The position numbers were made by a program, and so were the translations under genes. A stretch of DNA of 59,063 nucleotides from a virus: positions 1 to 59,063 of IMG/VR virus record IMGVR_UViG_3300020401_000020, one strand, 5' to 3'. Positions 4,411 through 51,500 of the stretch are shown here, one piece after another. Within the stretch, counting starts at the first letter, position 1. The number at the start of each line of letters is the position of its first letter. The notes under the pieces were generated by a model. That model was not told the DNA's origin. It worked only from the letters and a program-made list of their open reading frames with translations, and did not search any database.

Positions 4411-4689
4411 ATGGCACTTAAACCAGATGAAATACTAGCTGAGTTTGGTGTGAATGATAAAGTTGCATCTGCCATAGAAAAGACCAAGCCTGTTCTAAAT
4501 GAAGTAAGAACTGAAACTGGAGCGGAAGCTTGGGATATGGTCACAGTATTACTTGTTCATTTAGCATCACTACACTCTTCGGAAAGACTAGACAAAGACG
4601 TTATTATTACTATGTTGTGGTACATGATGTTGCAGAACGAAGATATGCTAGATTCTTTTTTAGATAAAAAAGCAGAATTATTACACTAA
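4411..4689 (+). CDS. Small hypothetical protein
   Basis: 92 aa, mostly helical and acidic. It starts 6 nt after a TATAAT (4399-4404) and has no Shine-Dalgarno, so it may be made from a leaderless mRNA as well as by read-through from the SNF2 gene. It overlaps the next gene by one base (TAATG). No recognisable domain. Confidence 0.65.
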   Translation: MALKPDEILAEFGVNDKVASAIEKTKPVLNEVRTETGAEAWDMVTVLLVHLASLHSSERLDKDVIITMLWYMMLQNEDMLDSFLDKKAELLH

Positions 4690-7600
4690 TGGTAGATGAA
4701 GTAGAAGAAAAGTCGGCTATTGACAACGACGACATTTTAACTAGGTTTGGCAAAGCTTTACAGTTTGGTCTAGACCAACCGCTTGAAAGAATAGCAGATA
4801 CTTTCAAGTCATTTGGTTTTAACGACACCGAAAAATTTCTTAGAGATTTAACAGAAGAGCCCGAAAACTATATCTCCGCTGCAGAAAAATTTATGCAGGG
4901 TAATGGCATAAATTATGGTTGGGAGTATTTACCTAGAGCTGTTGTAGAACAGTTAGGAAGTTTAGCTGGAAATGTTGCTACCAGAGTAGCAGGAGCTGGT
5001 GTTGGAGCAGCTGTAGCTGGTCCTATTGGAGCAGGTGTAGGAGCTTTTGCCGCTCCAGTTTTATTTGAAGCATTGCAAATACTTGGACCAACTGCTTATG
5101 AAAGAGCTAGAAATGAAGGTAGAGAAGAGCCTACTTTAGAAGATTGGAAAGCAATAGCACCTACAACTGCTATTAGTTCTCTTTTAGGTTCTCTTGGTGC
5201 ACAAAACATTGCGAGACTAAACAGCGTATCTAAGTTTGGTATCCCCGGAAACATGAGCAGGACTACTAGAGGAGTTTTAGAAGAAGGTCTTACAGAGGGT
5301 GCTCAATCTCTTGTAGAACAAACAGGAACTACAGCATTTACTAAAAATGGTTTTGAGGTAAATTTAAGAGATGCTTTGGGTGAAGGTATTATTGGAGCAG
5401 GTACTGGTGGGGGTATTAATGCAGTTTTTGATGTTGCTGGGGGTTTAAGTAAATTTAAGAACTTCGAACCACAAGATGCTCAATTTAAAGATGAAAACAT
5501 AGATATTACTGGGATAAAGCTGATAAAAGGTCAACCAAAATATGAAGATTTGAAAAGACAGAAAAATGTTTTTAGAGGTAGTGGAGTAGATTATGATGTT
5601 AGTAGAACTGACACAGAGTCTCCAATAGATTATCTAAATAGGTTAGATAGAGAATTAGGTTTAGGGGGCGGTAACTTAACTAGAGAAGACCTAATCCCAA
5701 CCACCCCAGCACAACTAGCCTTTAACTTAGGTTTAATTACTAATGTAAATCCTTTTGAAAATCCATTAGAAAGTTTATCAAATGAACAACAAGAATCTCT
5801 TAACAATGCTCTTGATGAACAGTACGCTAATAATAAAGTTGTTAAAATTATTGATGCCATTGAAGACTTAAATTATTTACGCGGTTATCAACGAGCAACA
5901 ATTGCTACAGCAATACAAAGTGCTATTGAAGAAGCCCAAGAAATTGCTAGTCTTTATCCTAATTTAGATATAACTCAAGCTTTACCAACAGGAGCAAGAG
6001 CAGGTAAGGAAATTTTGTCAACGGGAGATATAAATGCTTTAAGAGACTTGCCCCCGGTAACAAACATAACTAACAGTGAAGAGTACCGTGAACTTCGAAG
6101 GACTCTAGATAAAAACGAAAATTTAACTCCAATAGAAACACAACTTATATTAGCAAAACAAACTTGGGCTAAAGACAAAAGTTATAGTGGTTTAGAGCTA
6201 GATTTAAATTTAACTTATTACGAAGATAAAACAGGACAGAGGTATCAAAGAACTCCAGATGAACAAGCAGTAGTTATTCAAGGACTTAATGATTATTTTA
6301 ATTACAGTTTTTTAACAGATAAGTATAGCCCAGAAACCGGAAGTCGAAATTTAGGTTTAGTTTTAAATTCAGAATATGATATGGATAATCCAGACAATCT
6401 TGATGTTGAAAGAAGACTTACGCCGGTAATGAATAAAGTTCTTAAAAAATACGTTGACAGAGGTACAGCAGAACTAGAGTTTAATAGAATAATAAACACT
6501 TTCCCGATAGCAACTACTTTTACAAATAACTATGCAGACCTAGATTTTAGAAGACAAGAATTAGGTTCTAAAGCAAAAGACTTTATAACGCAGTTAAATG
6601 ATTATTTTGGAAACTTGATTATAACTGAGAATATTGAAGATGCTGGATACGGCAGTGACGTAGAAACAGCGAGAGTCAAAAGACTAAGTGACTATCCTGA
6701 ATTTGAAAGTCTAGGAGGTTTTTTCAATAAGCCATTAGTAAAAAAACTAAGAAAAATTTTTAAAGATAATAAAGAAAACCAAGAACTTATAGCTCAAATT
6801 TATACAGAAACTTTTAATCCACTTGCTGACCAAACATTTATGCGTTACACAATGGACATGAAAACACTGCAAGGAGTATTTAATGATATGACTACAGGAA
6901 TTAATACTTATAAGTTTTTAAACGACAGAGTAAATTATTTTTCTCTTCCCTCTGAACCTGATGGCACATCTTTCAATAAGCTACAAGAAGCTCTAAGACA
7001 AGAAGTTATAGATGCTTTTGATAATTATGTTACTAATCCAGCTATAAGAGAATCTGCGGAAAAAATCATAACTGATAATTTTAGCAAAGCTAAATATTTT
7101 AGAACCAGAAAAGAAATTCAAAGAGACTTTGATGAGGCTTTTATCCGTAGTTATGTTGATGACCAAGAAATAGTGGATATTGTAAATACCGAACTTAACG
7201 AAATAATAGATAGTGCTCTACAAGAAGTAGGTACAACAAACCCCGGACTTGCTCAAGAACTACGAGATAAAACAAATCAAGTTTTAAATGATGAAGACCT
7301 TAATGTATTAGACGGAATAACGAATAGCGTAAAATACAACACTAAATCGTATATGGAAGAACACCCGGCTGAGTTTAGAGGTAGTGCAGAAGATGGTCCA
7401 GTGCCTCCAGACCAAGTTAAAGAAAGAATAGTAGCACAAGTGCAAAATAATGTTTCAAGTTCACGTGCTTTTACTCAAAACTTTGGCTTTTTAACCAACG
7501 CTATAAAACAATTAGCTTTAAAAGAAAGATATGAGCCCAATGCGGCAGTAAAAATAGGTAGAAACCAAGACGTATCTAAACCTGACTATTGGGAGTTTTT

Positions 7601-10349
7601 AGAAAGAACTTCTCCGGAACTATTTCAAGTAGTGGATAGATTAGGTCTTCAAGAATATGGTGATGTAATGGCAGAAGTTGCCATAAAAGAAGCTGGTAAT
7701 AGACCTTTTGCTACACCTGTCAATCCAGTATTTATGTCTACTTACTTTATAAATGAGAACATACAAAAGCTAGTTCCCGGTAGACCTTACGATTCTAAAG
7801 AGATGCTTAAATTTTTAGTAACTCCACACAAGCAAGAAAAACCAATCTACCCAACAGATTCAGGCGGTAAAGAAATTCCAATACTAGGAAGAGATGGACA
7901 ACCAATACTTGATGAACAAGGTCAACCAAGAACTAAAGTACAAAGAAAATCTGAAGATAGGTCATTGACTGCCAGAGAGTTATTTGGAGCTAATAACAAC
8001 CCAGACATTAACCAAGATTTTTATAACGAAGCAAGGAAAGAAATTGTAGACACAAACATAGCTAATCTTTTAATTCAAAGAGCTGCAGATAATAGACCAG
8101 TAACTAAAGAAGAGCTAGAGCTTCTTTTAAATAATGATGCAAATAAAACTTTAATGACAGTATCTAGAGCCTCAACAGGTCCACGTAATATTAGTGCGGG
8201 AATGTTATATGAAATAGGTCACAACGTAGACGGTGAATTAGCTGACTTAGCTGATGATTATTACACAATACATTTGTTTAACGATTACGCAAAAAGTAAA
8301 AATGAAACAATAAAACAAATGTCAATGAATGATAGTTATGACCTTGGCAGAATGAATGATAAATATGCTGATAAATCTCAAGATGGAGCCAATAGAAATC
8401 AGTACAAAATGGGAGGGCACCCTCCGGGTAGATTTTGGTCAAGGCATTATCAAATAGTAGCTAACGTTGGTGAGTTAATGTTAAGGGACTACCGAACTCA
8501 ACAACCAATAGATGATGTAACTGGTGTCAAAACTTTAAATGAATCTCAAAATGATTCTGAATATTTTAGAGGTGAAAACGTCACCAGACTAACAGAAGCC
8601 ACTTTTCCAATAATGATAGATAAAGTAAAAGAAAGTCTTAAAAAACTGTTGCCAAATGAATCTCCTGCAGACATAGACGAAATTGTTGATGGAATAAATT
8701 CACAACGAGCAGGGATAGAGGAATACAGAGATGCAGATGCTCAATTTGAAAGCTACGTAATTGAAAAGTTTCGAGAGAAACGTGGTATGGGAGCTTCTGC
8801 ACCAACACCAGAGCAGAAAATAGTTCTTAGAGAAATAGATACATTTTTAGATGATGTAATTGATGTCGCTCATCTGGGTCAAGTATATGGTGATGTCGAC
8901 CCAGATGGAATTAGAACTAATATGGATAAATTAAATAATTTCTTAGATTCTTCACAGATGTCTGCTTTTAATGGAGTTTTTCCAAATGCACATGAGCTTT
9001 CTGATGAAGCTATAAATAATAGGGTGGTAGGTTCCAGACCTTTAGGAAGCCCTGATAACTATACAGGTCAGACTGACCTAGGAGCGTCAAATCTTTTACA
9101 TACGCGTATTTCTAGAAGCAAGTCTATAAACGATTTAATGAATATGTATGGAGCAGCTTTAACTTTGTCTCCAGATAATTTAAAAGGATTAAGAGAAATA
9201 ATTGGTGCTGTGGCAGTTCTGGACACTACAGAAGATATTAGTTCGTCTAAATATATTGACTACAATTTTGTGGAAAATATTTATAGTTGGTTAACTAATG
9301 ACCTTAATTTTACGGGTAACAGTTTAAGTTTTGAAAAAACAAACAACTCAGCTATTAAAAACTTTTTCTTTCATGCAATGATTTTAGATACTATACAAGG
9401 CAATCGACCTTTATTAAGAGAAGATGCAGATGATTTTCTCAAAAGAATAAACAGAGAAAAAGATTTACCACCTTATAAATTTTTAAAATCTGTACTGCCT
9501 AGCCCAGAATTAAATAGAGACAATCCGAAAGAAGTGGCAAAAGAAGCAAAAAGAATATGGGGTAACTGGGTCAAAGCGGTTAAAGATTTTGAAAATTATA
9601 CTCCTGCAATACCATTAATAGCAGCTTTAAAAAACGACCCTTTTTACAAAGCTATAACTAAAGCAGATGAATTAGACCAAATGGACGAAACGTTTGATGA
9701 CGTTAAGGAAATTGTTAGTAACACGACAAAATCTACTTTTGAAACTCCTTACGTGGGTATTGGACAAAATGAATTTGGTTCAACACCAATGAGAGAAGGT
9801 TTGGGTCAGTCTTATACTAAAAAATCTGTGCGTATGATGTTAAAAGAAGCCATTGAACTTGGTGACCCGAATGTATCTCACATTTTAGTACCAACTAGAT
9901 ATGTAAATGAAAAGTATGGACAGAAACATGGAGCACATGAAAACTTTGACAGAGCTAGAAATGAGCTGCAAAACATAGCAGAGCAAAATGGCGTGGAGTT
10001 ACAAATAGTTAATTATGGTGAGGGTGTTCCTGACAATACAGCCAACCCTACTGAAAACCAGATTGAGTCAGTAGCTGAAAATTATCACCGTAGTATAAAA
10101 GAAGATTTAATAAATCGTTTTAAAGAGTCTAACTTAGAATATAACATAGCAAAAAACAATCTTGAAGGTATAAGAACTGCTTATCTCTTGCCTTTAGAAC
10201 CATTTAGAGTTAGAGATGACAGCACACCTTCTGGTTTTAAAATGAAAACTGTGTTTAGAGGAATGAAACTCGGTGGTTTCGTAGGTAAAGGTATAGTAGG
10301 ATTAAGAGATGAAATATACAACTCGCCACTATCAAAATATGTTACGTAA
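4689..10349 (+). CDS. Giant internal virion/ejection-type protein (1886 aa)
   Basis: After an acidic N-terminus, residues ~75-130 contain a Gly/Ala zipper membrane-like segment (VAGAGVGAAVAGPIGAGVGA) followed by alanine/glycine-rich helices up to ~250. The rest is a long, charged, mostly helical polypeptide with no enzyme motif I can identify. Size, N-terminal glycine zipper and absence of cysteines resemble large proteins that podoviruses inject with their DNA to span the cell envelope. It has the same design as the 1802-aa protein at 48546 but lies 38 kb away, outside the late virion block and next to replication genes. An alternative is a polyvalent protein delivered into the host to act early. 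The virion role is inference. Confidence 0.6.
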   Translation: MVDEVEEKSAIDNDDILTRFGKALQFGLDQPLERIADTFKSFGFNDTEKFLRDLTEEPENYISAAEKFMQGNGINYGWEYLPRAVVEQLGSLAGNVATRVAGAGVGAAVAGPIGAGVGAFAAPVLFEALQILGPTAYERARNEGREEPTLEDWKAIAPTTAISSLLGSLGAQNIARLNSVSKFGIPGNMSRTTRGVLEEGLTEGAQSLVEQTGTTAFTKNGFEVNLRDALGEGIIGAGTGGGINAVFDVAGGLSKFKNFEPQDAQFKDENIDITGIKLIKGQPKYEDLKRQKNVFRGSGVDYDVSRTDTESPIDYLNRLDRELGLGGGNLTREDLIPTTPAQLAFNLGLITNVNPFENPLESLSNEQQESLNNALDEQYANNKVVKIIDAIEDLNYLRGYQRATIATAIQSAIEEAQEIASLYPNLDITQALPTGARAGKEILSTGDINALRDLPPVTNITNSEEYRELRRTLDKNENLTPIETQLILAKQTWAKDKSYSGLELDLNLTYYEDKTGQRYQRTPDEQAVVIQGLNDYFNYSFLTDKYSPETGSRNLGLVLNSEYDMDNPDNLDVERRLTPVMNKVLKKYVDRGTAELEFNRIINTFPIATTFTNNYADLDFRRQELGSKAKDFITQLNDYFGNLIITENIEDAGYGSDVETARVKRLSDYPEFESLGGFFNKPLVKKLRKIFKDNKENQELIAQIYTETFNPLADQTFMRYTMDMKTLQGVFNDMTTGINTYKFLNDRVNYFSLPSEPDGTSFNKLQEALRQEVIDAFDNYVTNPAIRESAEKIITDNFSKAKYFRTRKEIQRDFDEAFIRSYVDDQEIVDIVNTELNEIIDSALQEVGTTNPGLAQELRDKTNQVLNDEDLNVLDGITNSVKYNTKSYMEEHPAEFRGSAEDGPVPPDQVKERIVAQVQNNVSSSRAFTQNFGFLTNAIKQLALKERYEPNAAVKIGRNQDVSKPDYWEFLERTSPELFQVVDRLGLQEYGDVMAEVAIKEAGNRPFATPVNPVFMSTYFINENIQKLVPGRPYDSKEMLKFLVTPHKQEKPIYPTDSGGKEIPILGRDGQPILDEQGQPRTKVQRKSEDRSLTARELFGANNNPDINQDFYNEARKEIVDTNIANLLIQRAADNRPVTKEELELLLNNDANKTLMTVSRASTGPRNISAGMLYEIGHNVDGELADLADDYYTIHLFNDYAKSKNETIKQMSMNDSYDLGRMNDKYADKSQDGANRNQYKMGGHPPGRFWSRHYQIVANVGELMLRDYRTQQPIDDVTGVKTLNESQNDSEYFRGENVTRLTEATFPIMIDKVKESLKKLLPNESPADIDEIVDGINSQRAGIEEYRDADAQFESYVIEKFREKRGMGASAPTPEQKIVLREIDTFLDDVIDVAHLGQVYGDVDPDGIRTNMDKLNNFLDSSQMSAFNGVFPNAHELSDEAINNRVVGSRPLGSPDNYTGQTDLGASNLLHTRISRSKSINDLMNMYGAALTLSPDNLKGLREIIGAVAVLDTTEDISSSKYIDYNFVENIYSWLTNDLNFTGNSLSFEKTNNSAIKNFFFHAMILDTIQGNRPLLREDADDFLKRINREKDLPPYKFLKSVLPSPELNRDNPKEVAKEAKRIWGNWVKAVKDFENYTPAIPLIAALKNDPFYKAITKADELDQMDETFDDVKEIVSNTTKSTFETPYVGIGQNEFGSTPMREGLGQSYTKKSVRMMLKEAIELGDPNVSHILVPTRYVNEKYGQKHGAHENFDRARNELQNIAEQNGVELQIVNYGEGVPDNTANPTENQIESVAENYHRSIKEDLINRFKESNLEYNIAKNNLEGIRTAYLLPLEPFRVRDDSTPSGFKMKTVFRGMKLGGFVGKGIVGLRDEIYNSPLSKYVT

Positions 10350-13488: not shown

Positions 13489-13565
13489 ACTAAATAGATT
13501 TCTAAATTATATACGAAAAGCAAAAGGATTATTCCCATAACAAAGATGATTACATTTTTTATCAT
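13485..13565 (-). CDS. Single-pass membrane peptide (26 aa)
   Basis: MIKNVIIFVMGIILLLFVYN followed by LEIYLV is nearly all hydrophobic, one transmembrane segment. Both ends overlap neighbouring genes by ATGA, so translational coupling supports it. It could modify the host membrane or act as a small toxin-like peptide; no evidence for either. Confidence 0.5.
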   Translation of the reverse strand: MIKNVIIFVMGIILLLFVYNLEIYLV

Positions 13566-14047
13566 GTAGTCCACCATTTTGGCTTGTCCCTTCCTTTTTC
13601 CCACTTTGCATAAGTTTTCTCGTGGATACAGTATCTGCGATAAGCAACGATAGGGTCTTTATGTTTGTACTTGTCGGGCATGGCTTGTGCAACTGTTGTC
13701 ATACTACCTACTTTTATATTTCTAGGTCTTACACATAAAGGTTTTTGAAGTTTTAGATAACTAGCATGTTCTCTACCATATCTATATTTATATTCGTCGC
13801 TCAATGCTAAGAAATGGTATACCAACCACCAATAATTAGAACTTGACTCTCTTGCCCAAATGGTACAAGGATGATTTTTGTATGCAGTTTTGTAGAGTCC
13901 AACTCTATCTGCGTATTCGTCGCCGTCTAATTCTCTGTGTGCTGTGCATAACATCTGTGCTGTTTCTAAGGGCATCTTCACTAGCATTTTATCGGGTTGT
14001 GCTTCTGCTGATAAAACGGGACAATCATCAAAGTAAAAAATGTTCAT
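13562..14047 (-). CDS. Conserved phage protein of unknown function
   Basis: 161 aa, ribosome site AAGGAG. It contains the conserved pattern of a widespread phage family: an N-terminal MNIFYFDDCPVLSAEA, then MLVKMPLETAQMLCTAHR, HPCTIWARESSSNYWWL and QAMPDKYK near the C-terminus. I know this pattern from many phages but no activity is established; relation to DNA glycosylases is sometimes suggested and not visible here. Confidence 0.75.
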   Translation of the reverse strand: MNIFYFDDCPVLSAEAQPDKMLVKMPLETAQMLCTAHRELDGDEYADRVGLYKTAYKNHPCTIWARESSSNYWWLVYHFLALSDEYKYRYGREHASYLKLQKPLCVRPRNIKVGSMTTVAQAMPDKYKHKDPIVAYRRYCIHEKTYAKWEKGRDKPKWWTT

Positions 14048-16438: not shown

Positions 16439-16631
16439 TGTTCTCTTCCCCTAAGTTTTCAGGCATTTTTATACATTTAAAATCCCATTCGTATTTATCT
16501 TCGTTTAGGACTTCTCCTTCGCCTTCTTCTATTTTTACTTCTGCTTCTTCATAGTTATTTGCTTCAACAACTATTTCTTCAACTACTTCGTAAGTTATTT
16601 CAAAAACATATTTCTTCATTACTTTACTCAT
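16431..16631 (-). CDS. Small hypothetical early protein, strongly acidic
   Basis: 66 aa. YVFEITYEVVEEIVVEANNY followed by EEAEVKIEEGEGEV is a beta-strand-rich pattern seen in many small phage proteins. Net charge is highly negative. Role unknown. Confidence 0.65.
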   Translation of the reverse strand: MSKVMKKYVFEITYEVVEEIVVEANNYEEAEVKIEEGEGEVLNEDKYEWDFKCIKMPENLGEENNA

Positions 16632-16764
16632 CTTCGTTCTCCAACTTAGTTAAAAACTCATCTACTACAGAAGCACACCAATCAGGAATATCAGTAATAT
16701 TCTCCTCAGTATTATCTTCTCTATGTATGCGTAGACTCCAACTTATTATTTGTTTATCAGACAT
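16624..16764 (-). CDS. Small hypothetical protein (46 aa)
   Basis: ATG 16764 follows AAGGAGAAAAT. The frame (MSDKQIISWSLRIHRE...) ends by overlapping the next start. It contains IPDWCASVVDEF. No family recognised. Confidence 0.6.
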   Translation of the reverse strand: MSDKQIISWSLRIHREDNTEENITDIPDWCASVVDEFLTKLENEDE

Positions 16765-16773
16765 ATTTTCTCC

Positions 16774-16935
16774 TTATATATTTAATCTGTTTTTTATTAT
16801 ATTCAAAGCGTGGTATCTCTTTTCAGATGATTTCTCATACTCTAAGCTAGACTCCACTAAGAATGCTTGGTTATCTGCTTTATCTACTGCTTCTTTCACA
16901 ATTTCAAATGCTTCTGATATTGTTGAAATGGTCAT
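16774..16935 (-). CDS. Small helical hypothetical protein (53 aa)
   Basis: ATG 16935 overlaps the preceding TGA (ATGA) behind AAAGGAGTTTGCCC. The predicted structure is two amphipathic helices. No family recognised. Confidence 0.6.
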   Translation of the reverse strand: MTISTISEAFEIVKEAVDKADNQAFLVESSLEYEKSSEKRYHALNIIKNRLNI

Positions 16936-17192
16936 AGGGCAAACTCCTTTAAAACAACCTTGTGTAATTCCCTTATCATTTCATCAGATAATTGGCGTAA
17001 AACATCTTCCAGATAGCAGTCGTTTATAAATTTATTGGTTTTGTAGTTCATAAAAATCCATTCACTAGATTTTTGAACATAGACAAGTCTTGCATCAATG
17101 CCTACATTTTCAATTTCTACATTATCTCCAAAAGTATGCTCTTCTAGTATTTCAACTATGTAATTTATTTCTCCTTGTAATGCGTGGCTCAT
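16932..17192 (-). CDS. Small hypothetical early protein
   Basis: 86 aa, mixed alpha/beta, joined to both neighbours by ATGA overlaps. No family recognised. Confidence 0.65.
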   Translation of the reverse strand: MSHALQGEINYIVEILEEHTFGDNVEIENVGIDARLVYVQKSSEWIFMNYKTNKFINDCYLEDVLRQLSDEMIRELHKVVLKEFAL

Positions 17193-17437
17193 AATTCTAT
17201 CTCCCCACTTAAGATGTCTTCGATACTAGCAAACTCACTTCCCCACCAATTTATTGTGAATGTACCATTCCTCATTGGGTGTATTTCGTAATTGAGTTTT
17301 AGTTCGTAAAGAGCAGTCATGTTTTCGTAAATCCAATCTTGGAAAGTTTCTGCTTCCTTTTGATTTACTATTAGTGTTTCGTACTCATTTGTGTAGAATT
17401 CATTACCTTCTACTATTGTTTTACTCCTTGCTGTCAT
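17189..17437 (-). CDS. First gene of early operon, hypothetical
   Basis: 82 aa; ribosome site AAAGGAGAAGAT. It heads the tiled minus-strand operon that continues to 12553. Contains NGTFTINWWGSEFASIEDIL. No family recognised. Confidence 0.65.
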   Translation of the reverse strand: MTARSKTIVEGNEFYTNEYETLIVNQKEAETFQDWIYENMTALYELKLNYEIHPMRNGTFTINWWGSEFASIEDILSGEIEL

Positions 17438-17466
17438 ATCTTCTCCTTTGATAGCGTTAATTAATA

Positions 17467-17495
17467 TGTATAAAGTACCAAAAATATCTCATAAA
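17467..17495 (-). promoter_or_regulatory. Candidate promoter of early operon
   Basis: On the minus strand TTTATG, a 17-nt spacer and TATACA precede the first early gene. The same TTTATGAGATAT and TATACATATT words recur upstream of the 63-aa gene near 20905-20950, which supports a shared control region. Confidence 0.35.
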
Positions 17496-17535
17496 AGCAA
17501 CTTTATTTTTAACAGTAATATATACTTCTTATTAC

Positions 17536-17928
17536 ATGGCAAAAAGTGAGAGTAATTTTTGGCAACAAGTCAAGAAAAATCTTAAAGAATTTCAATGGCT
17601 ACGCCTTGAGTCTTGGGCATCTCAGGGTGTTCCCGATTTGTTAGGCACAACTAAAAATGGGCAACTCTTTACTGTTGAATTGAAAGTAATAAAAAGTAAT
17701 AAACCGAACATCTCTCCACACCAAATTGCTTTCCATTTACAGCGTAAAAACTCGCCGTGTTTTATCCTGATTTCGTCCCTCGTCCAATCAAGCTCCAAAA
17801 AATCTCAGCTCTATCTAGTTCCTTCGTCCGAGCTAGAAAATCTTTTGGACGAAGGTCTTTCGTCCAAGTATCTCTGTACTTCGTTTGCTGACGTTGGTCA
17901 AAGGATTAAAAATTATTGGGGGGATTGA
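17536..17928 (+). CDS. VRR-NUC-type nuclease (PD-(D/E)XK, Holliday-junction resolvase-like)
   Basis: 130 aa. QGVPDLLG followed by FTVELKV gives the PD...(D/E)xK core (GVPD at ~31-34, ELK at ~48-50) and SPHQIAFH is the conserved Q/H element of the family. Such small nucleases cut branched DNA such as replication or recombination intermediates before packaging. There is no Shine-Dalgarno; a TAATAT at 17515-17520 would give a leader of only about 8 nt. It is the only plus-strand gene between the early operon and the late block. Confidence 0.75.
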   Translation: MAKSESNFWQQVKKNLKEFQWLRLESWASQGVPDLLGTTKNGQLFTVELKVIKSNKPNISPHQIAFHLQRKNSPCFILISSLVQSSSKKSQLYLVPSSELENLLDEGLSSKYLCTSFADVGQRIKNYWGD

Positions 17929-18004
17929 CGGGGGGTTGGCTTGTCGCTTCACTGTTGATTGTTCAGGGGGGTGGGAGAAGATGGGTTGTCAAGTCGCTGA
18001 ACGC
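17929..18004. other. Non-coding stretch with a half copy of the palindrome
   Basis: GGCTTGTCGCTT near 17938 differs by one base from the right arm (GGCTCGTCGCTT) of the palindromes at 18.3-21.1 kb, and G-runs lie on both sides. No left arm is present, so this looks like a decayed or partial sixth copy. Confidence 0.4.
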
Positions 18005-18039
18005 AAAAAAGCCCGAACAGTCGAAACCATTCGGGCTTT
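18005..18039 (-). terminator. Intrinsic terminator of the 56-aa gene (module A)
   Basis: AAAGCCCGAA and TTCGGGCTTT form a perfect 10-bp stem around a 12-nt loop. On the minus strand the stem is followed by a run of T, so it ends the minus-strand gene; it may also stop the converging nuclease transcript. Confidence 0.85.
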
Positions 18040-18057: not shown

Positions 18058-18228
18058 TTATTCGCGTGAATTTTTAGCAATGTGGTCTGCAAATCTTTCT
18101 CTATTAAATCTCGGGTTATCCGTCTTTAATAGATTTTCGAAATCATTTCGAAACTCTGCAGAAACACCTCTATTGTGTTCAGCAAATAAATCGGCGAACT
18201 TTATATAATACTTTCTTGATAAGGGCAT
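18058..18228 (-). CDS. Small conserved-type hypothetical protein (56 aa)
   Basis: ATG 18228 follows AGGAGAATATA. The sequence (SAEFRNDFENLLKTDNPRFN then RERFADHI) resembles short phage proteins seen in cyanophages and pelagiphages. It is the sole gene of module A: promoter upstream, terminator downstream. Confidence 0.65.
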   Translation of the reverse strand: MPLSRKYYIKFADLFAEHNRGVSAEFRNDFENLLKTDNPRFNRERFADHIAKNSRE

Positions 18229-18255: not shown

Positions 18256-18284
18256 ATTATGGCATATATCTTATAAAAAAGCAA
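18256..18284 (-). promoter_or_regulatory. Module A promoter
   Basis: Minus strand TTGCTT, 17-nt spacer, CATAAT. The spacer contains TTATAAGAT, shared at the same place in module C. CCCC-AAAA-CCCC lies directly upstream of the -35. Confidence 0.7.
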
Positions 18285-18299
18285 GGGGTTTTGGGGTTG

Positions 18300-18358
18300 A
18301 TAAAAGCGACGAGCCATGCCTGGCAAATGAGGAACGAGTGTTGGCTCGTCGCTTTTAT
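18300..18358. repeat. Module A palindrome (copy 1 of 5)
   Basis: A 17-bp perfect inverted repeat: ATAAAAGCGACGAGCCA at 18300-18316 and its complement at 18342-18358, separated by 25 bases. The flank on one side is always TTATGAT. It lies between the terminator of the neighbouring module and the module A promoter. Confidence 0.9.
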
Positions 18359-18403
18359 TATGATATTTGGGAGCAGGGAAGCGTGGGGAAAAACGCTGGG
18401 CAT

Positions 18404-18440
18404 AAAAAAAGGGCGACAGCATTTCTGTTGTCGCCCTTTA
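18404..18440 (-). terminator. Intrinsic terminator of the 98-aa gene (module B)
   Basis: On the minus strand a stem built on GGGCGACA/TGTCGCCC is followed by seven T. It lies 13 bases past the gene stop. Confidence 0.85.
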
Positions 18441-18452
18441 GTTTGGGACCAA

Positions 18453-18749
18453 TTACGCTAAATCTTTTATCTCTCCGTTTTCGTCTTTGATTAAAAGATA
18501 TTCAAAACCACATCCACCAGCTAATGTTTGTTTGTAGTTGTCAATTTCTTTTTCAAAGTCGCCTTCAATTTCATTCTTGTAATCTGCTGAAGGTAATCCA
18601 AGAGCTTGAACTTCAGGGATAAACTTACAAATCATACTTTTTGCTTCAGTCCCATATTCATCATCTTCAGAAGAAATTACTGCAACAGTAATTCTCTTTC
18701 CAATTATTACATCACAAAACTCGTAAGTTTTTCCTTTGATTTTTTTCAT
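18453..18749 (-). CDS. Hypothetical protein of module B
   Basis: 98 aa, ribosome site CGAGG. Mixed alpha/beta, acidic, with a CxxGGCG-like stretch (LAGGCGFEYLL). Single gene between its own promoter and terminator, like a moron. No family recognised. Confidence 0.65.
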   Translation of the reverse strand: MKKIKGKTYEFCDVIIGKRITVAVISSEDDEYGTEAKSMICKFIPEVQALGLPSADYKNEIEGDFEKEIDNYKQTLAGGCGFEYLLIKDENGEIKDLA

Positions 18750-18780
18750 ATTTACCTCGTTGTTTGTTAATCAATAATGA

Positions 18781-18810
18781 ATTATGGCATAGGTCCCATA
18801 AAAAAGTCAA
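18781..18810 (-). promoter_or_regulatory. Module B promoter
   Basis: Minus strand TTGACT, 18-nt spacer, CATAAT; CCCC-TTTTT-CCCC lies directly upstream of the -35. Confidence 0.7.
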
Positions 18811-18826
18811 GGGGAAAAAGGGGTTG

Positions 18827-18882
18827 ATAAAAGCGACGAGCCAAGATATAACGAGGTACGAGTGTTGGCTCGTCGCTTTTAT
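18827..18882. repeat. Module B palindrome (copy 2 of 5)
   Basis: The same 17-bp perfect inverted repeat as in module A (arms 18827-18843 and 18866-18882). The 22-base loop differs from module A except for its end ACGAGTGT, which the two share. Confidence 0.9.
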
Positions 18883-18930
18883 TATGATTTTTTCGGTGCA
18901 CGAAGCTACGGAGAAAAAAATGATGGGCAT

Positions 18931-18970
18931 AAAAAAAGGGGTTGGCTCACTTTTCGAACGCCAACCCCTT
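18931..18970 (-). terminator. Intrinsic terminator of the 90-aa gene (module C)
   Basis: AAGGGGTTGGC and GCCAACCCCTT form an 11-bp perfect stem followed on the minus strand by T7. It is about 60 bases past the stop of the 90-aa gene; the interval (18971-19028) contains two CCTAGG boxes and no gene. Confidence 0.85.
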
Positions 18971-19028
18971 TGCCTAGGGTTAAAGGTTAAGAACCTAGGA
19001 CTTATTTGGGAGAATTACTTCCTCAAAA

Positions 19029-19301
19029 TCATGATACCACCTCTCCTAAGTTTTGTTGTTGTACTCCTTCGGCGTAATCGTCGAAGCCCATATCCAGAAC
19101 TACATGACCAATGCCATAAGATAATCTGACTCTCATTTCACAATCGTTGTGGACCATTTCGAATGTGACTGGGAACAAAGTATCTTCGGGAAAGTCCTCA
19201 AAGAACTCATCAGTTATTGTTCTGTTCCTACCTTCGTCAATGGACCTTTGATTAATCCTCTTAACATCTTGGTAGGTCATAAAGCTAACTGTGTTATTCA
19301 T
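19029..19301 (-). CDS. Hypothetical protein of module C, leaderless
   Basis: 90 aa. The ATG lies six bases after the -10 TAATAT, so the mRNA should begin at or next to the start codon; there is no Shine-Dalgarno. The protein is acidic with FFEDFPEDTLFPVTFEMVHN. No family recognised. Confidence 0.65.
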   Translation of the reverse strand: MNNTVSFMTYQDVKRINQRSIDEGRNRTITDEFFEDFPEDTLFPVTFEMVHNDCEMRVRLSYGIGHVVLDMGFDDYAEGVQQQNLGEVVS

Positions 19302-19307
19302 ATGTAA

Positions 19308-19336
19308 ATATTAGGATAAATCTTATAATATGTCAA
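19308..19336 (-). promoter_or_regulatory. Module C promoter (consensus -35)
   Basis: Minus strand TTGACA, exactly 17 nt, TAATAT. The spacer holds TTATAAGAT, as in module A. Paired C-runs (CCCCC-N6-CCCCC) sit directly upstream of the -35. This is the strongest promoter seen in the window. Confidence 0.8.
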
Positions 19337-19352
19337 GGGGGATTTGTGGGGG

Positions 19353-19523
19353 TAAAAGCGACGAGACAACTCCAAGACCAGCAACGCCAATTTATAAGCA
19401 AAAGGTCCAACACTATTGAACGAGGATATGTTATCCAACATATCATTCGGGCAATAGTGTATTGAAGACCTTTTGCTTATAAAAAAATTAGTGAATGGAC
19501 TAGGATTTGGCTCGTCGCTTTTA
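19353..19523. repeat. Module C compound palindrome (copy 3 of 5) with nested inverted repeats
   Basis: Outer arms TAAAAGCGACGAG (19353-19365) and complement (19511-19523). Inside them lies a 16-bp perfect repeat TTATAAGCAAAAGGTC (19392-19407 with 19467-19482). It continues as CAACACTATTG paired with CAATAGTGTATTG (19408-19418 with 19452-19464). At the centre is a perfect hairpin GATATGTT-ATCC-AACATATC (19425-19444). A fourth hairpin, TTCTGGGCT/AGCCCAGAA, follows at 19533-19569. The inner block looks like a separate cruciform inserted into the standard palindrome. Confidence 0.85.
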
Positions 19524-19584
19524 TTATGATTTTTCTGGGCTTCGGGATGTTTTGCTTCGTAGCCCAGAAGAAAAAATAGATATG

Positions 19585-19610
19585 AAAAAGGGAGACCGAA
19601 GTCTCCCTTT
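19585..19610 (-). terminator. Intrinsic terminator of the 128-aa gene (module D)
   Basis: AAAGGGAGAC-loop-GTCTCCCTTT, perfect 10-bp stem. On the minus strand the loop is the stable C(UUCG)G tetraloop, followed by T5. Confidence 0.9.
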
Positions 19611-19635
19611 CCATGATTGACAACAACATCATTCT

Positions 19636-20022
19636 TTAATCAAGAGGCACAAATACAGGGGGGTGGTAAAAGTCCTCTGTCTTAATCACACCTTTCGGTA
19701 GGCGAATACTTTTCATGTAGTATTCAATCGGCATGATTGGGGAAGTGCTATTCCCTTTGTCATCATTACCAAGAACAATACCTCTACCAAAATAGGCGTT
19801 ATCGTTAAAACTAAAAGCGTAGTTCTCGTCAATCAGTAAACCTTCATCATCAATGTAAATGATGTCGGTGTTGTCAGGATTTGAGTAATCTCTAACTGCA
19901 TCTATCGTTCTGACTTGTTTAACATCAGTTGATAAAAGCTGGTAGAGTTTATCTAAATCCATACTGTCTGTAGTTAGTTGAGCAATGCTCATACAGTCAG
20001 GTTGGATAATGTAAGCGTACAT
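19636..20022 (-). CDS. DUF3846-like protein
   Basis: 128 aa; ribosome site AAGGAGAATATAT. The N-terminus MYAYIIQPDC, then DIIYIDDEGLLIDENYAF and FGRGIVLGNDD match the layout of DUF3846 proteins (a beta-rich domain with a conserved yvdEeG and a GxxxvxG near the end), common in phages and plasmids. No function is established. It is the first gene of module D. Confidence 0.6.
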   Translation of the reverse strand: MYAYIIQPDCMSIAQLTTDSMDLDKLYQLLSTDVKQVRTIDAVRDYSNPDNTDIIYIDDEGLLIDENYAFSFNDNAYFGRGIVLGNDDKGNSTSPIMPIEYYMKSIRLPKGVIKTEDFYHPPVFVPLD

Positions 20023-20055
20023 ATATATTCTCCTTATGTTGTTAATCGAATTTAG

Positions 20056-20084
20056 ATTATAAGATATTTTTTATAAAAATGGAA
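20056..20084 (-). promoter_or_regulatory. Module D promoter
   Basis: Minus strand TTCCAT, 17-nt spacer, consensus TATAAT. Paired C-runs CCCC-TTTTT-CCCC lie directly upstream of the -35, identical to module B. Confidence 0.65.
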
Positions 20085-20102
20085 GGGGAAAAAGGGGTTG
20101 AC

Positions 20103-20163
20103 ATAAAAGCGACGAGCCGACAGTTATTTTCTAATGTGTCCTTTGTCGGCTCGTCGCTTTTAT
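20103..20163. repeat. Module D palindrome (copy 4 of 5)
   Basis: 20-bp perfect inverted repeat: ATAAAAGCGACGAGCCGACA (20103-20122) with its complement at 20144-20163. The stop codon of the 75-aa gene abuts its base, so on the minus strand the hairpin followed by TTTTAT-like sequence can act as that gene's terminator. Confidence 0.9.
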
Positions 20164-20390
20164 TATGATTGGACCTTAGGTTCTTTGTACCAAACTCTGA
20201 CTTTGCCATTCGGCTGAATTTTTAAAGCAGGTAGTTTGTTAAGACTTCTAAGAGCATTTGCCAAAGACACTGCCCTTGGATAACTTTCCATAAGTACGCT
20301 ATCGCCAACCTTCATACACTCGGCAGTAAATTTAATCTTGCCTTGTTTACTCTCGATTGGGATGCCCTTTTCTATTTTGTAAGTTTCCAT
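20163..20390 (-). CDS. Hypothetical protein (75 aa)
   Basis: Starts at ATG 20390 (METYKIEKGI) after GGTGGAAATA; a longer start at 20402 would lack a ribosome site. The ATG overlaps the preceding stop as TAATG. The second half (YPRAVSLANALRSLNKLPAL) suggests a small alpha/beta fold. Its stop lies in the flank of the module D palindrome. Confidence 0.6.
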   Translation of the reverse strand: METYKIEKGIPIESKQGKIKFTAECMKVGDSVLMESYPRAVSLANALRSLNKLPALKIQPNGKVRVWYKEPKVQS

Positions 20391-20524
20391 TATTTCCACC
20401 ATTTAAGTAAGTTTTCATTAATCATCTCGCGTCGAAGTTCTTGCAATCTATGTATCTCTTTGCTAATCGCTCGTCGCTCTGCCTTCTTCTCTTCAATTAA
20501 ATCTATAATTTCTAATTGGGTCAT
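20390..20524 (-). CDS. Small helical basic protein (44 aa)
   Basis: MTQLEIIDLIEEKKAERRAI and following residues form one amphipathic, probably coiled-coil helix. It begins just after a terminator hairpin (20526-20552) and is coupled to the next gene by TAATG. No strong ribosome site. Confidence 0.55.
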   Translation of the reverse strand: MTQLEIIDLIEEKKAERRAISKEIHRLQELRREMINENLLKWWK

Positions 20525-20525
20525 A

Positions 20526-20552
20526 ATAAAAAAAGGGGAGTCCTAAGACTCC
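20526..20552 (-). terminator. Intrinsic terminator inside module E
   Basis: Minus strand GGAGTC-TTAG-GACTCC followed by CC and T7. The hairpin loop contains the stop codon of the 47-aa gene, so a ribosome finishing that gene would cover the hairpin. This could let translation control read-through to the next two genes. Confidence 0.75.
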
Positions 20553-20686
20553 TCCTTTTCCTCCTCCATAATTTTAAGTTGATTATCAAGAAACACTTTG
20601 ACAAGTCTTAGGTTTCTCTCGTTAAGTTGGGCAATGCTACCTAAAGCACTACCCACCATTGCGTCTTGAAAAGATTTACTGTCCAT
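20543..20686 (-). CDS. Small helical protein (47 aa)
   Basis: MDSKSFQDAMVGSALGSIAQ continues as a charged helix ending EEEKEES. Its ATG overlaps the upstream stop (TAATG), and its TAG lies in the loop of the terminator. No family recognised. Confidence 0.55.
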   Translation of the reverse strand: MDSKSFQDAMVGSALGSIAQLNERNLRLVKVFLDNQLKIMEEEKEES

Positions 20687-20877
20687 TAATTTAAATCTCC
20701 ATTTGGCAATTGAAGATTGTCCATGCCTCTAAGAGCCATGACTTCTTCAAGTGCAGTTGTATTTACATTGCCATTGGATACAACGACAACACCATTTATA
20801 ACTAACTCAGTTAAGTTAGTCTCGACTCCAGCGAGTTCTCCACCTTGGTCAAGTTTTAAAACAAAAGTAAATTTCAT
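20686..20877 (-). CDS. Small hypothetical protein (63 aa), first gene of module E
   Basis: Beta-rich (MKFTFVLKLDQGGELAGVET...) with ribosome site CGAGG. Coupled to the 47-aa gene. Similar small beta proteins occur in other marine phages but no family name is known to me. Confidence 0.6.
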   Translation of the reverse strand: MKFTFVLKLDQGGELAGVETNLTELVINGVVVVSNGNVNTTALEEVMALRGMDNLQLPNGDLN

Positions 20878-20962
20878 ATTTCCTCGTTTAGTTGTTAATC
20901 AATATGTATAAGATACAGTAATATGTAAAATATGCAAGTATATCTCATAAAGTTTTTAGATT

Positions 20963-20992
20963 ATTTTATCATATAAGATTGCTCTTATATAA
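20963..20992 (-). promoter_or_regulatory. Module E promoter and inverted-repeat operator
   Basis: Minus strand TTATAT, 18-nt spacer, TAAAAT, placed after paired C6 runs as in the other modules. The spacer region carries ATATAAGA-TTGC-TCTTATAT (20971-20990), a perfect 8-bp inverted repeat that could be an operator; its half TATAAGAT/ATCTTATA recurs in the promoters of A, C and D. A second -10 (TATACA) lies at 20905-20910. Confidence 0.45.
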
Positions 20993-21011
20993 CTGGGGGG
21001 AATAAGGGGGG

Positions 21012-21075
21012 TAATCAAAGCGACGAGCCGACAATAAAAGGAAGCGAAGCGACTGTCGGCTCGTCGCTTTGATTA
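21012..21075. repeat. Module E palindrome (copy 5 of 5)
   Basis: 22-bp perfect inverted repeat, arms 21012-21033 and 21054-21075, around GCGACGAGCCGACA. Where the other copies have AAAAGCG this one has CAAAGCG, and the opposite arm carries the matching change, so pairing is conserved. A G6/C7 hairpin follows at 21089-21103. Confidence 0.9.
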
Positions 21076-21173
21076 TGATAGGAGCAGAGGGGGGAGCCCC
21101 CCCAAACAGAATAACATCCATATACAGACATATATAAGTAAAGATATACACAAAAACTCTGGTATCAAAAACT

Positions 21174-21220: not shown

Positions 21221-21700
21221 ATGGAGAAAAAAATTTCTACTTCCAAAAAATGTACGCATTGTAAAAAAGAAATTTCTCTGGAAAAGTTCACATCCCAAAG
21301 TACGAAATGCAAAGCTTGTGTTGATGTAGTAAGACGAAAGGCTGCTAGTGCAACTCCACAAAAATTTCTGACCCGCTCTTTCGGTCAACTCAAACATGCA
21401 AGAATAAAAAAAGAAAAAACAAAGAAAGGTTGGGACATAACACTAGAAGATGTTTTGGAACTATGGGAAGTACAAAAAGGTAGGTGTGCTTTGACAGGAT
21501 TATTTATGACCTTTCATAAAGATGGCAGTGGCAGAAGAGACTTAAATGTTTCTATTGATAGAATAGACCCAGATACTGACTATTTAGTAACGAACATTCA
21601 ACTAGTTTGTCTTAGAGTAAACACAATGAAACACACACTAAAAGAAGACGAGCTTTATTGGTGGGCTAAAAATATAGTAGAATGCAAAGAGAATGAGTAA
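21221..21700 (+). CDS. HNH endonuclease, terminase-associated type
   Basis: 159 aa. An N-terminal zinc ribbon (C11, C14, C30, C33) is followed by a C-terminal HNH-type fold: GRCALTG, SIDRIDP, then TNIQLVCLRVNTMK. Phages of the HK97 and related types often encode an HNH nuclease next to the large terminase, where it is needed for DNA cleavage during packaging. Here it overlaps the large terminase gene by eight bases, supporting that role. A free-standing homing nuclease is the alternative. Confidence 0.8.
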   Translation: MEKKISTSKKCTHCKKEISLEKFTSQSTKCKACVDVVRRKAASATPQKFLTRSFGQLKHARIKKEKTKKGWDITLEDVLELWEVQKGRCALTGLFMTFHKDGSGRRDLNVSIDRIDPDTDYLVTNIQLVCLRVNTMKHTLKEDELYWWAKNIVECKENE

Positions 21701-48545: not shown

Positions 48546-51500
48546 ATGTCCACAGAGTTAGATAGATTAAATGAGCTAGAAAAGAAACTTAATAGTTCAA
48601 ATTTATTAACAACTGAAGAACAACAAGAATACAATAATCTTTTTGATAAACTTTATTTAGTAGGTGACGAACAAGACTCTGAAGAGGGCACCGCAAATTT
48701 TTTCGAAGCAATCCAAAAAACTGCACAAAATTTATTCTCTAGTGCTTCTGCTGGGGTAGAAGCTGTTGGTGAATATACTGGTTCAGAAAGCTTAGATAAA
48801 GCTGGAGAACGTGGGCAACAACTTGTACAACCTGCCTTAGAGTCAGGCAAACGACTAAAAACTTTTGATGATATAACAGATGTAGGAGATGCTGCAGATT
48901 GGTTATTTAGCAGTGCTTTTCCACAAGTAGCTACTAGTATTGTAGCTACTTTGCCAACAGCCATAGCCGGAGCAAAAATAGGTGGAGCAGGTGGAGCAGC
49001 TTTACTTGGTCCTGTTGGAGCAGCTGTAGGTGGTATTGGTGGAGGTATATTAGGAGCTTTTTTACCATCAATGTTGATGGGTGCGGGAGAAATATCTAAA
49101 GAAATAAAAGACAGAGGAGGAGATGCTCCCGGAGCAGCTATCGCTGGTGGTGCATTTATGGGTGCATTAGACACACTTTCTATGGCAGTCGGTTTAAGAG
49201 GTATTGCTCCTAAATTATTTAAAAATACCACCATGTTTAGAAGTAACATAGACAGGCTAGTAAATGAAGCAGTAAAAAGAGGAGCACCTCCAGCTAAATT
49301 TAAAACTGCACTAACTCACGCTTTACAAGGAGCAATACTTGAAGGGGGAGTAGAGGTTTCGCAAGAAGCTTTTGCTGACTGGGTAGCAGAAAATCAAACT
49401 GATATTGCAAGTCCTGAAGGAGAACTAGCAGGTAGGTTATATGAAACCTTTACTTTAGGTGCTTTGGGTGGAGGAGCTTTTGGTTACGCTGGTGGTGCAA
49501 GTCAAGCAAAAAATATACAACAAAACTTTGATGCTTTAAAAGAAGTAGAAAGTATTGAACAAGCTGCTGAAGCAAAAGCAAATCAATTTATGGCAGATGA
49601 AAAAATAGATGACATGATTGAAGAACAGTTTAGAACGCATCTATTAAGAAATAATAAAACGGACATATTAGTTTCTTTAAATAAAAGAGGACTAGACGCA
49701 GCTAAAGAACAATACAAGCAAGAATATATTGCTGAAACAAAAGCGAGTGAACTGGCTAAATATGCAATAGACGGTTTACCAGAAGCGACGTTAGGTAAAA
49801 AAACTGAAGAAAAAATAAACGAAATGAGAGCTTTTACTAATCAGCAAATAAATGATATGTATGATGTTCTTAAAAGAGACGTATTAACAAAAGGTTTAGC
49901 ACAAGGTCTTGATAGATATAGTATCAATACTCCTAAAGATGATGTAGATATTGAATCAAAAAGATTTCAATTAGCTCGTAATGAAGTTATGAACGAATAC
50001 ATACAGTTAGCTGATATTGGTATCGCAGATGAAAATAGACTTTTAAGTAGTCCTGCTTTATTTCAACAATACTTAAGAGAAGGTGAAAGTAAAGATATTA
50101 GGCAGTTAATTGAAGAGCACAAAGTTCTGTTTCCTACAGGAGTGGGCACTGAAGCTGGAGTACAAGAACAAAACAGAAACAAAATGTCTAAAGCTGATTT
50201 AAATAAACAAATAGCTGAAAAAAGATTTAAGTTAGCCAACACATTTGAAAATTTACAAATAGGTAAAGAAGAAAGTTTTTTTGCTCCAGAAAGCTATCAA
50301 GCACTGCAAAACATTTGGGTAAATGAAATAGGCAGAAGCAGAGAGCGTATAGTTGACCCATTGTCAGGAAAAGTTACAGCATTTACTGTTCAGCTTAAAA
50401 ACTCACAAAACGCTAGTCCAATTAATCTAACTTTTCAAAAAAGAGTAGATACTAGAACTACTTCAAAAGGAGAAAAAATTCCAACTTCAGTTGAGTACAT
50501 AGCAACTGCAGCAGACGGTGCTGCTAATCCTGAAGTTTATATAGGAAAAACTTTTGAAGATATGATAAATACTGCTGAGTTAAAAAGATATGGAAGTGAG
50601 TTTGACTATAGACTAGACCCAAAAAACGCAGAACAACTTTACGGACCTACTTTAGAGCTAGTTAGTTATGTAGGTAAAGTTAATCAAAATATTAATTACG
50701 ACTCTGGTCCTCAACGTGTACTTCAATTTTTAAATTATTTGTTCAGACCTAGAGGAGCAAAAAAGTCAGAGGCATTTTTTGAACTAGAAAGGAAAAAAAT
50801 AGGTAGGTTAAGAGCTATTGGACACCGCATGGCACAACTTGCCCATGCTTATGATACCGCTGTAGTAAATGAAGTTTTGACAGGGGACAAAACTTACCAA
50901 GAAATAAATAAAATAGGTATGGACTTCTTAACTAACACTCAACAAAAAATGTTTATTCCTTCGGAGTATCAACAGCAGTTAATAAAAGATATACAGGATA
51001 TGGATACAGATACTACTTTTACTGATAAACAAAAAGCAGAAGTTTTAAAGAAAATTAGAAGTGGTAAAGATGAGATAGTCGGACCAAGAACTAACATATT
51101 AGATTTACCTGAAAATATTAGAGCACCTCTTGTTGCTATGAGAACAAACATTGACATATTGACACAAAGAATAAAAGACGAAATACCAAAAAGTATTTTG
51201 CAACAAGAACTTAATGTAGCTGAAATTGTGCCATCTATGTCAGGAGAACCAAGATTGCAAGAAACTACAATGACTATAGATGAAATTATGTCAAAAAGAC
51301 TTGGTTCTTATGTAACTGACCAATACAAAATGTTTGATACTGGCTATAACCCATTTAGTTTCTGGGAAAAATGGTGGGGAACAAAAAAAATAAATGATGT
51401 AAAAGCTAGAGCTATTAAGGCTATAAAACAAAAACCAAAAATAATGGCTGGGCTAAAAGCAGAAGCAGATAGAAAGAAAACAGACGTAGATACTGAGGCA

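Follow-up and report, generated by a model that had tools for sequence, protein, structure and literature searches.

A palindromic promoter-upstream element in a small-gene array of an HTVC023P-related virus: a candidate operon tag with a putative tandem counterpart in a cultured pelagiphage

The virus record IMGVR_UViG_3300020401_000020, analyzed over its full 59,063 bases (here called the window), contains an array of small minus-strand genes. A plus-strand gene for a resolvase-like nuclease borders it on one side; on the other lie the genes for an endonuclease VII-like protein and the large terminase. Read on the minus strand, the array holds five perfect inverted repeats of one stem, (A)AAGCGACGAGCC, together with a half copy at 17940, and behind each of the five repeats follow a paired run of C, a predicted sigma70-like -35/-10 promoter and one to four small genes. 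Element E (21012–21075; 22 bp arms, 20 nt loop) is followed by CCCCCC-TTATT-CCCCCC (20995–21011), and element D (20103–20163; 20 bp arms, 21 nt loop) by a C-run pair (20085–20097) and TTCCAT-N17-TATAAT. Element C (19353–19523) has 13 bp perfect arms around a 145 nt loop that folds as a long imperfect hairpin, and precedes a C-run pair (19337–19352) and TTGACA-N17-TAATAT. Element B (18827–18882; 18 bp arms, 20 nt loop) stands before a C-run pair (18811–18823) and TTGACT-N18-CATAAT, and element A (18300–18358; 17 bp arms, 25 nt loop) before one at 18285–18296 and TTGCTT-N17-CATAAT. The terminal element F (17918–17950) consists of the half-site GAAGCGACAAGCC and a C-run pair; it overlaps the 3' end of the resolvase-like gene and has no gene behind it.

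Within the window these features are confined to the array. The 59 kb contain no inverted repeats beyond these five whose arms measure 13 bp or longer around a loop of at most 160 nt, and 60 dinucleotide shuffles gave 0.1 such repeats on average and one at most; CCCC-N3-7-CCCC is found at six places only, all on the minus strand and corresponding to the five palindromes and the half copy, against 0.73 expected. Their predicted folding energies as DNA range from -19 to -49 kcal/mol, with z of -7.7 to -11.5. Matches to the sigma70 consensus across the whole region show no excess over chance (30 found, 36 expected), and the predicted promoters are credible because of their fixed place behind the element and their conservation. 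The initial annotation of this DNA had described the five repeats with their common stem and half copy, the C-runs, promoters and one to four genes behind each, and four gene sets ending in a terminator while set E runs into palindrome D; this description holds, with the arms of repeat B corrected from 17 to 18 bp and with an internal terminator-like hairpin (20552–20537) in set E, after which the set continues into palindrome D. Some further features of the elements were seen. The loop of element C carries a nested hairpin of its own with a 17 bp stem (19391–19483), and the loops of other relatives at this place are 4 to 55 nt long. The stem of element E reads GACGAG in the window and GACAAG or GACACG in the other near relatives with E sequence, perhaps through conversion from neighbouring copies. 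Downstream, the promoter region of the next operon (17456–17495) resembles that of cassette E (20894–20951), with 87–88% identity over short stretches.

The terminase-portal DNA of the window matches that of HTVC023P, HTVC027P and phage 023Pt_psg01 at 66–67%; these phages belong to the HTVC023P-type group (PMC9599517, PMC12753301), which is widespread in the ocean (PMC9599517). The ocean bacterium SAR11 is the presumed host of the window's lineage, judging from the cultured isolates. At this locus the array is present in three phage groups, g1, g2 and g3, of which the latter two are sister groups, and the core AGCGACRAGC is found throughout. Group g1 comprises the window and 12 contigs with terminases at least 97% identical where the sequence includes this gene, while g2 terminases are 83–85% identical under the same condition. 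The g2 stem is ACAAGCGACAAGC, with a tandem half-site 21 bp upstream, and the motif TTTTCGCGCGA stands where g1 has its C-runs; in g3 the motif is GTCGCGCGCGG. Where g1 has half-site F, g2 carries a complete palindrome, which ends at the nuclease gene's stop codon. The initial annotation had noted a half copy remaining at 17938; its presence is clear, at 17940, and it is not a random remnant, since near relatives keep it and a sister group has the complete palindrome there. In a scan of 2.9 million viral contigs, those with more than one such palindrome among the matches listed are g1 and g2 only, and a separate scan of genomes gave scattered single copies among its listed matches.

The stems keep their pairing although their letters vary. 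Over 72 distinct copies, which include a few g2 tandem half-sites matched to the same right arm, all 720 cells for the ten outer positions of the stem hold Watson-Crick pairs and none holds G.U, a count that is not a tally of independent events because the copies are related. Two or more kinds of pair occur in five of the ten outer columns (for instance G-C in 32 copies and A-T in 40), and in the inner stems the sequence varies freely with pairing retained, around loops of 2 to 157 nt. The compensated changes agree with the earlier suggestion that the arms are kept for pairing under differing loops. For comparison, neighbouring terminators have 12 G.U pairs in 295 cells, a similar count in which the best hairpin before a T-run was chosen. 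The all-Watson-Crick stems point to pairing that is maintained, or copied, in the DNA itself, with hairpin-templated repair as one conceivable route, and also to a sequence constraint on the core. Binding of a rigid dimer to duplex DNA was considered too and is rejected, since the half-sites are separated by 2–157 nt.

Strict pairing of this kind favours an alternative in which the palindromes would extrude as cruciforms and be cut by an adjacent resolvase-like or endonuclease VII-like enzyme, making the array a recombination hot spot. The flanking genes fit this idea. The plus-strand gene at 17536–17928 encodes a PD-(D/E)XK nuclease like archaeal Hjc and VRR-Nuc Holliday junction resolvases, with the motif E25...PD33-34...E48xK50 and a good AlphaFold model (predicted local distance difference test, pLDDT, 84) whose best fold matches include archaeal Hjc resolvases and a VRR-Nuc domain; VRR-Nuc proteins cleave four-way junctions (PMC4103454). 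On the other side, a plus-strand gene (21221–21700) encodes an endonuclease VII/HNH-like protein, for which structure prediction was unsuccessful (pLDDT 46). Many relatives that lack long palindromes, HTVC027P among them, nevertheless have the resolvase-like gene, and a dedicated role for this enzyme is rejected because the gene is more widespread than the array; the endonuclease VII-like gene is not seen between the large terminase gene and the array in g3, and the junctions observed are not at palindrome tips. The cruciform explanation is improbable. Further from the array, a pyrimidine dimer DNA glycosylase-like gene lies at 13562–14047 (Pyr_excise, 8.4e-08).

The second question raised by the hairpins is whether they are terminators. 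Canonical terminators lie separately, about 50–60 nt upstream of most palindromes, and in the window these are found at the ends of cassettes D (19585–19612), C (18935–18971), B (18408–18439) and A (18008–18039), all on the minus strand. In the 8 nt after the palindrome stem, the number of T on the cassette strand is 4.5 in g1 and 3.0 in both g2 and g3; on the other strand it is 5.5 in g1 and 5.0 in both sister groups. Intrinsic terminators are recognized by a GC stem, a short loop and a U-tract, whereas the palindromes have loops of 2–157 nt and no U-tract in the sister groups, which argues against termination as their conserved function. From the letters after the stem, the g1 palindrome may possibly act as a weak terminator of antisense transcripts, but this would not be the conserved function.

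These observations bear on the promoter-early stem-loop (PeSL) cassettes of T4-type phages (Arbiol 2010, Comeau 2014, as summarized in PMC4503421). By this account the hairpins would be terminators joined to promoters, insulating the cassettes and providing homology for shuffling. Judged by sequence, sigma70-like promoters with stem-loops do stand ahead of the small variable genes, the g1 opposite strand has a U-rich tail (TTTTATTATGAT), and set E enters hairpin D without a terminator; the exchange of small genes under constant frames, described below, is a further likeness. Against it stand the separate terminator that cassettes usually have, the lack of a U-tract on the cassette strand of sister-group palindromes and its weakness on the other strand, loops of up to 157 nt, and visible junctions at places other than the palindromes. 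Compared with PeSLs as they are summarized in that source, the palindrome in the window is separate from the terminator and its stem sequence is a single conserved one, the element is unfolded in relatives, and the DNA matches HTVC023P-type pelagiphages rather than the T4-like myoviruses in which PeSLs were described. The array is not filed as PeSL, although it would work partly like one, because the sister-group stem does not look like a standard terminator, and the PeSL explanation is considered unlikely.

Turnover of the genes behind the elements is evident within g1, where the order E-D-C-B-A is constant. Cassette E begins with gene F2 (20686–20877, 63 aa), which is first in every g1 relative with cassette E sequence, and continues with F6 (20543–20686, 47 aa), which varies between relatives, a 44 aa open reading frame (ORF) read from the sequence (20390–20524) and F5 (20163–20390); its tail is variable across relatives. 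Cassette D holds a 128 aa gene (19636–20022) with a weak DUF3846 match under the gathering score, and is missing in three contigs (L135, L202 and L134). Cassette C holds F3 (19029–19301, 90 aa), and cassette B holds F7 (18453–18749, 98 aa), which is replaced or joined by F10 in relatives. Cassette A, with F1 (18058–18228, 56 aa), is lost in one contig (L059) in which its palindrome remains. All of these genes are on the minus strand, and a check of the cassette genes for defence or other known functions gave weak matches only; no tRNA was found, nor any known RNA family in Rfam. In two contigs, L224 (2120–2290) and L208 (2060–2240), one cassette has element, promoter and terminator but no gene that could be recognized; it may encode a small RNA or have been emptied.

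A tree of the terminases, with weak support for most inner branches, requires at least three changes in each of cassettes B and D, and the well-supported pair L081/L135 differs in both. The B and D frames are mostly 94–100% identical while the genes behind them are 77–89% identical or replaced; part of the apparent swap in B may be differential loss, because L135 has F7 and F10 in one cassette. The readable junctions coincide with the start codon, lie inside terminators or fall in a stretch that resembles a -10 box, and none is at a palindrome. The initial annotation had proposed insulated cassettes swapped by recombination at the palindromes and suggested comparing gene content between related genomes: the separate expression cassettes and the loss and exchange of their genes are seen, while near relatives keep the same order and recombination at the palindromes is not supported, with junctions lying elsewhere.

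More distant relatives carry related units in the same interval in other forms. Tandem (CAAGCNN)n runs stand flush with or near TTGACA in HTVC027P, L184, L194, L199, L204 and L205, and short palindromes, TGCGACA-N3-TGTCGCA, stand ahead of TTGACTT in L173–L176 and L193; in L195 a single element combines CAAGC units at 8 bp steps with a GCGACA palindrome and TTGACA. The g2 stem contains CAAGC-GA-CAAGC, equal to two units, and the g2 tandem half-site is 21 bp (3 x 7) distant from it. Searching contigs for tandem units yielded at least 120, selected by the motif itself; of the 120 listed, 115 have the nuclease or terminase of this phage group. In these, runs with three or more CAAGC-NN units number 371, and 61 of them are flush with TTGAC (0.46 expected); all 16 dinucleotides occur at NN, showing that these letters are free. 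Of the 328 runs that can be oriented, every one is on the strand opposite the resolvase-like gene, and 212 are no more than 250 nt from the 3' end of that gene, the place of half-site F in the window. Other distant loci were retrieved through similarity of terminase or DNA, independently of the motif; there the element is present at 11 of 42 promoter-like sites on the strand of the cassettes and at 0 of 22 on the opposite one. HTVC023P itself has no CAAGC units in the interval, and its annotated genes there are all on the plus strand. A further variant is seen in phage 023Pt_psg01 (L132), with GAGC/CAAGC-like tandem repeats and G-runs at 5260–5390 and 6090–6165, the same two kinds of place.

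As the forms share letters, spacing and place and meet in one mixed case (L195), we infer that tandem and palindromic units are variants of one element. The tandem forms of HTVC027P and L205 have no comparable hairpin (z +0.7 to -2.3), and a hairpin is therefore not required across the family. The window array itself fits the proposed class: between resolvase-like and terminase genes, its minus strand has AAGC/GCGAC units ahead of the -35. An earlier proposal that a shared regulator reads the C-runs or the hairpin thus survives as regards a shared readable element; the C-runs are lineage-specific, and the conserved part is AAGCGAC/CAAGC, which is non-palindromic in relatives.

The position of the units also bears on what could read them. 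Their location between the small and large terminase genes could point to binding sites of the terminase small subunit, at which packaging would start, and tandem units would suit a ring-shaped multimer; a position flush with the -35 and a repetition at every small operon would not be expected of such sites, and this role is very unlikely. The elements may otherwise act as RNA in read-through transcripts, as processing or antitermination hairpins. CAAGC units at 2 or 3 nt spacing resemble the sites of multi-subunit RNA-binding proteins, and the long hairpins would be stable, but a place upstream of the promoter and, in relatives, flush with the -35, as well as the absence of G.U pairs and of an Rfam family, makes an RNA role the least probable of the alternatives weighed here.

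The cultured relative HTVC027P offers a link to expression. In its complete genome, 16 of 17 CAAGC-NN-CAAGC matches lie at 16506–17726 on the minus strand; two runs are flush with TTGACA, ahead of gp34 and gp33, and a third set is at the 3' end of the nuclease gene. HTVC027P resembles the window in interval and strand and in where its CAAGC-based element stands, namely at promoters of the minus strand (two of them) and where the resolvase-like gene ends, and differs in having tandem units instead of palindromes and other genes behind the promoters. In the published infection transcriptome of this phage, 'extra cluster 2' consists of exactly gp33 and gp34, which are high at 6–9 h (PMC12753301); promoters, palindromes and terminators are unmentioned in the main text of that paper. 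Because the only two tagged genes of HTVC027P share a private expression time, the tag probably marks a separately controlled gene group, and because the genes are neighbours, this timing is support and not proof.

On the reading favoured here, which is considered more likely than not, the element is a recognition site upstream of the promoters of phage operons with their own timing, and in the window's lineage it is palindromic. In HTVC023P-type phages, AAGC/GCGAC units between the resolvase-like gene and the large terminase would precede the -35 of every small operon on the minus strand, with one further copy where the resolvase-like gene has its 3' end, taking the form of tandem CAAGC-N2 (or N3) units, short GCGACA palindromes or long perfect palindromes in different relatives. 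A sequence-specific DNA-binding protein of phage or host would most likely read the element and set the operons' own expression time; each operon would have its own promoter and usually its own terminator, and small genes would be gained, lost and exchanged by ordinary recombination beneath constant frames. Several points weigh against this explanation. The regulator is putative, and the link between tandem and palindromic forms is drawn from letters, spacing, place and the one mixed case. The adjacency of gp33 and gp34 allows other causes of their common timing, and the at least 120 contigs with the heptad were selected by that motif. Long stems are perfectly paired despite letter changes, which binding to unfolded DNA alone does not account for. 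The explanation also leaves out the C-runs and the motif TCGCGCGA that separate the palindrome from the -35.

Other known systems share parts of this arrangement. In the haloarchaeal virus HGTV-1, a conserved inverted repeat and promoter box are found upstream of many ORFs, with a promoter that is of archaeal TATA type (PMC3950731). The extended start-associated sequences (ESAS) of cluster K mycobacteriophages are conserved inverted repeats with a variable spacer upstream of gene sets, with a consensus that varies by subcluster; unlike the window's elements, which have perfect arms, compensated changes and a tie to the -35, their 17 bp repeats are imperfect, with departures that argue against hairpins, and are tied to translation starts (PMC3203893). 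Each cassette of the window has its own predicted promoter, unlike integron cassettes. N4-type promoter hairpins were rejected, as the array stems are far longer; the two giant ORFs of the window (4689–10349, 1886 aa, and 48546–53954, 1802 aa) have no PHROG match. The statement in the initial annotation that no phage was described with this arrangement is too strong, given that PeSLs, at least as summarized in PMC4503421, HGTV-1 motifs and ESAS come close. The papers searched yielded nothing on how promoters are organized in HTVC023P-type pelagiphages, and the element and its regulator also appear undescribed in them.

For the family as a whole, the chances are about even that these units form a regulon of HTVC023P-type pelagiphages, in which tandem CAAGC-N2/3 or palindromic promoter tags, read by a putative and probably multi-subunit DNA-binding protein, would open a private expression window, with small genes traded under the tag. 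One cis element would then appear as tandem units, as a short palindrome and as a long perfect palindrome inside one phage group. A tag that predicts a separate time class would also turn published RNA-seq into a test, in a cultured phage and its host.

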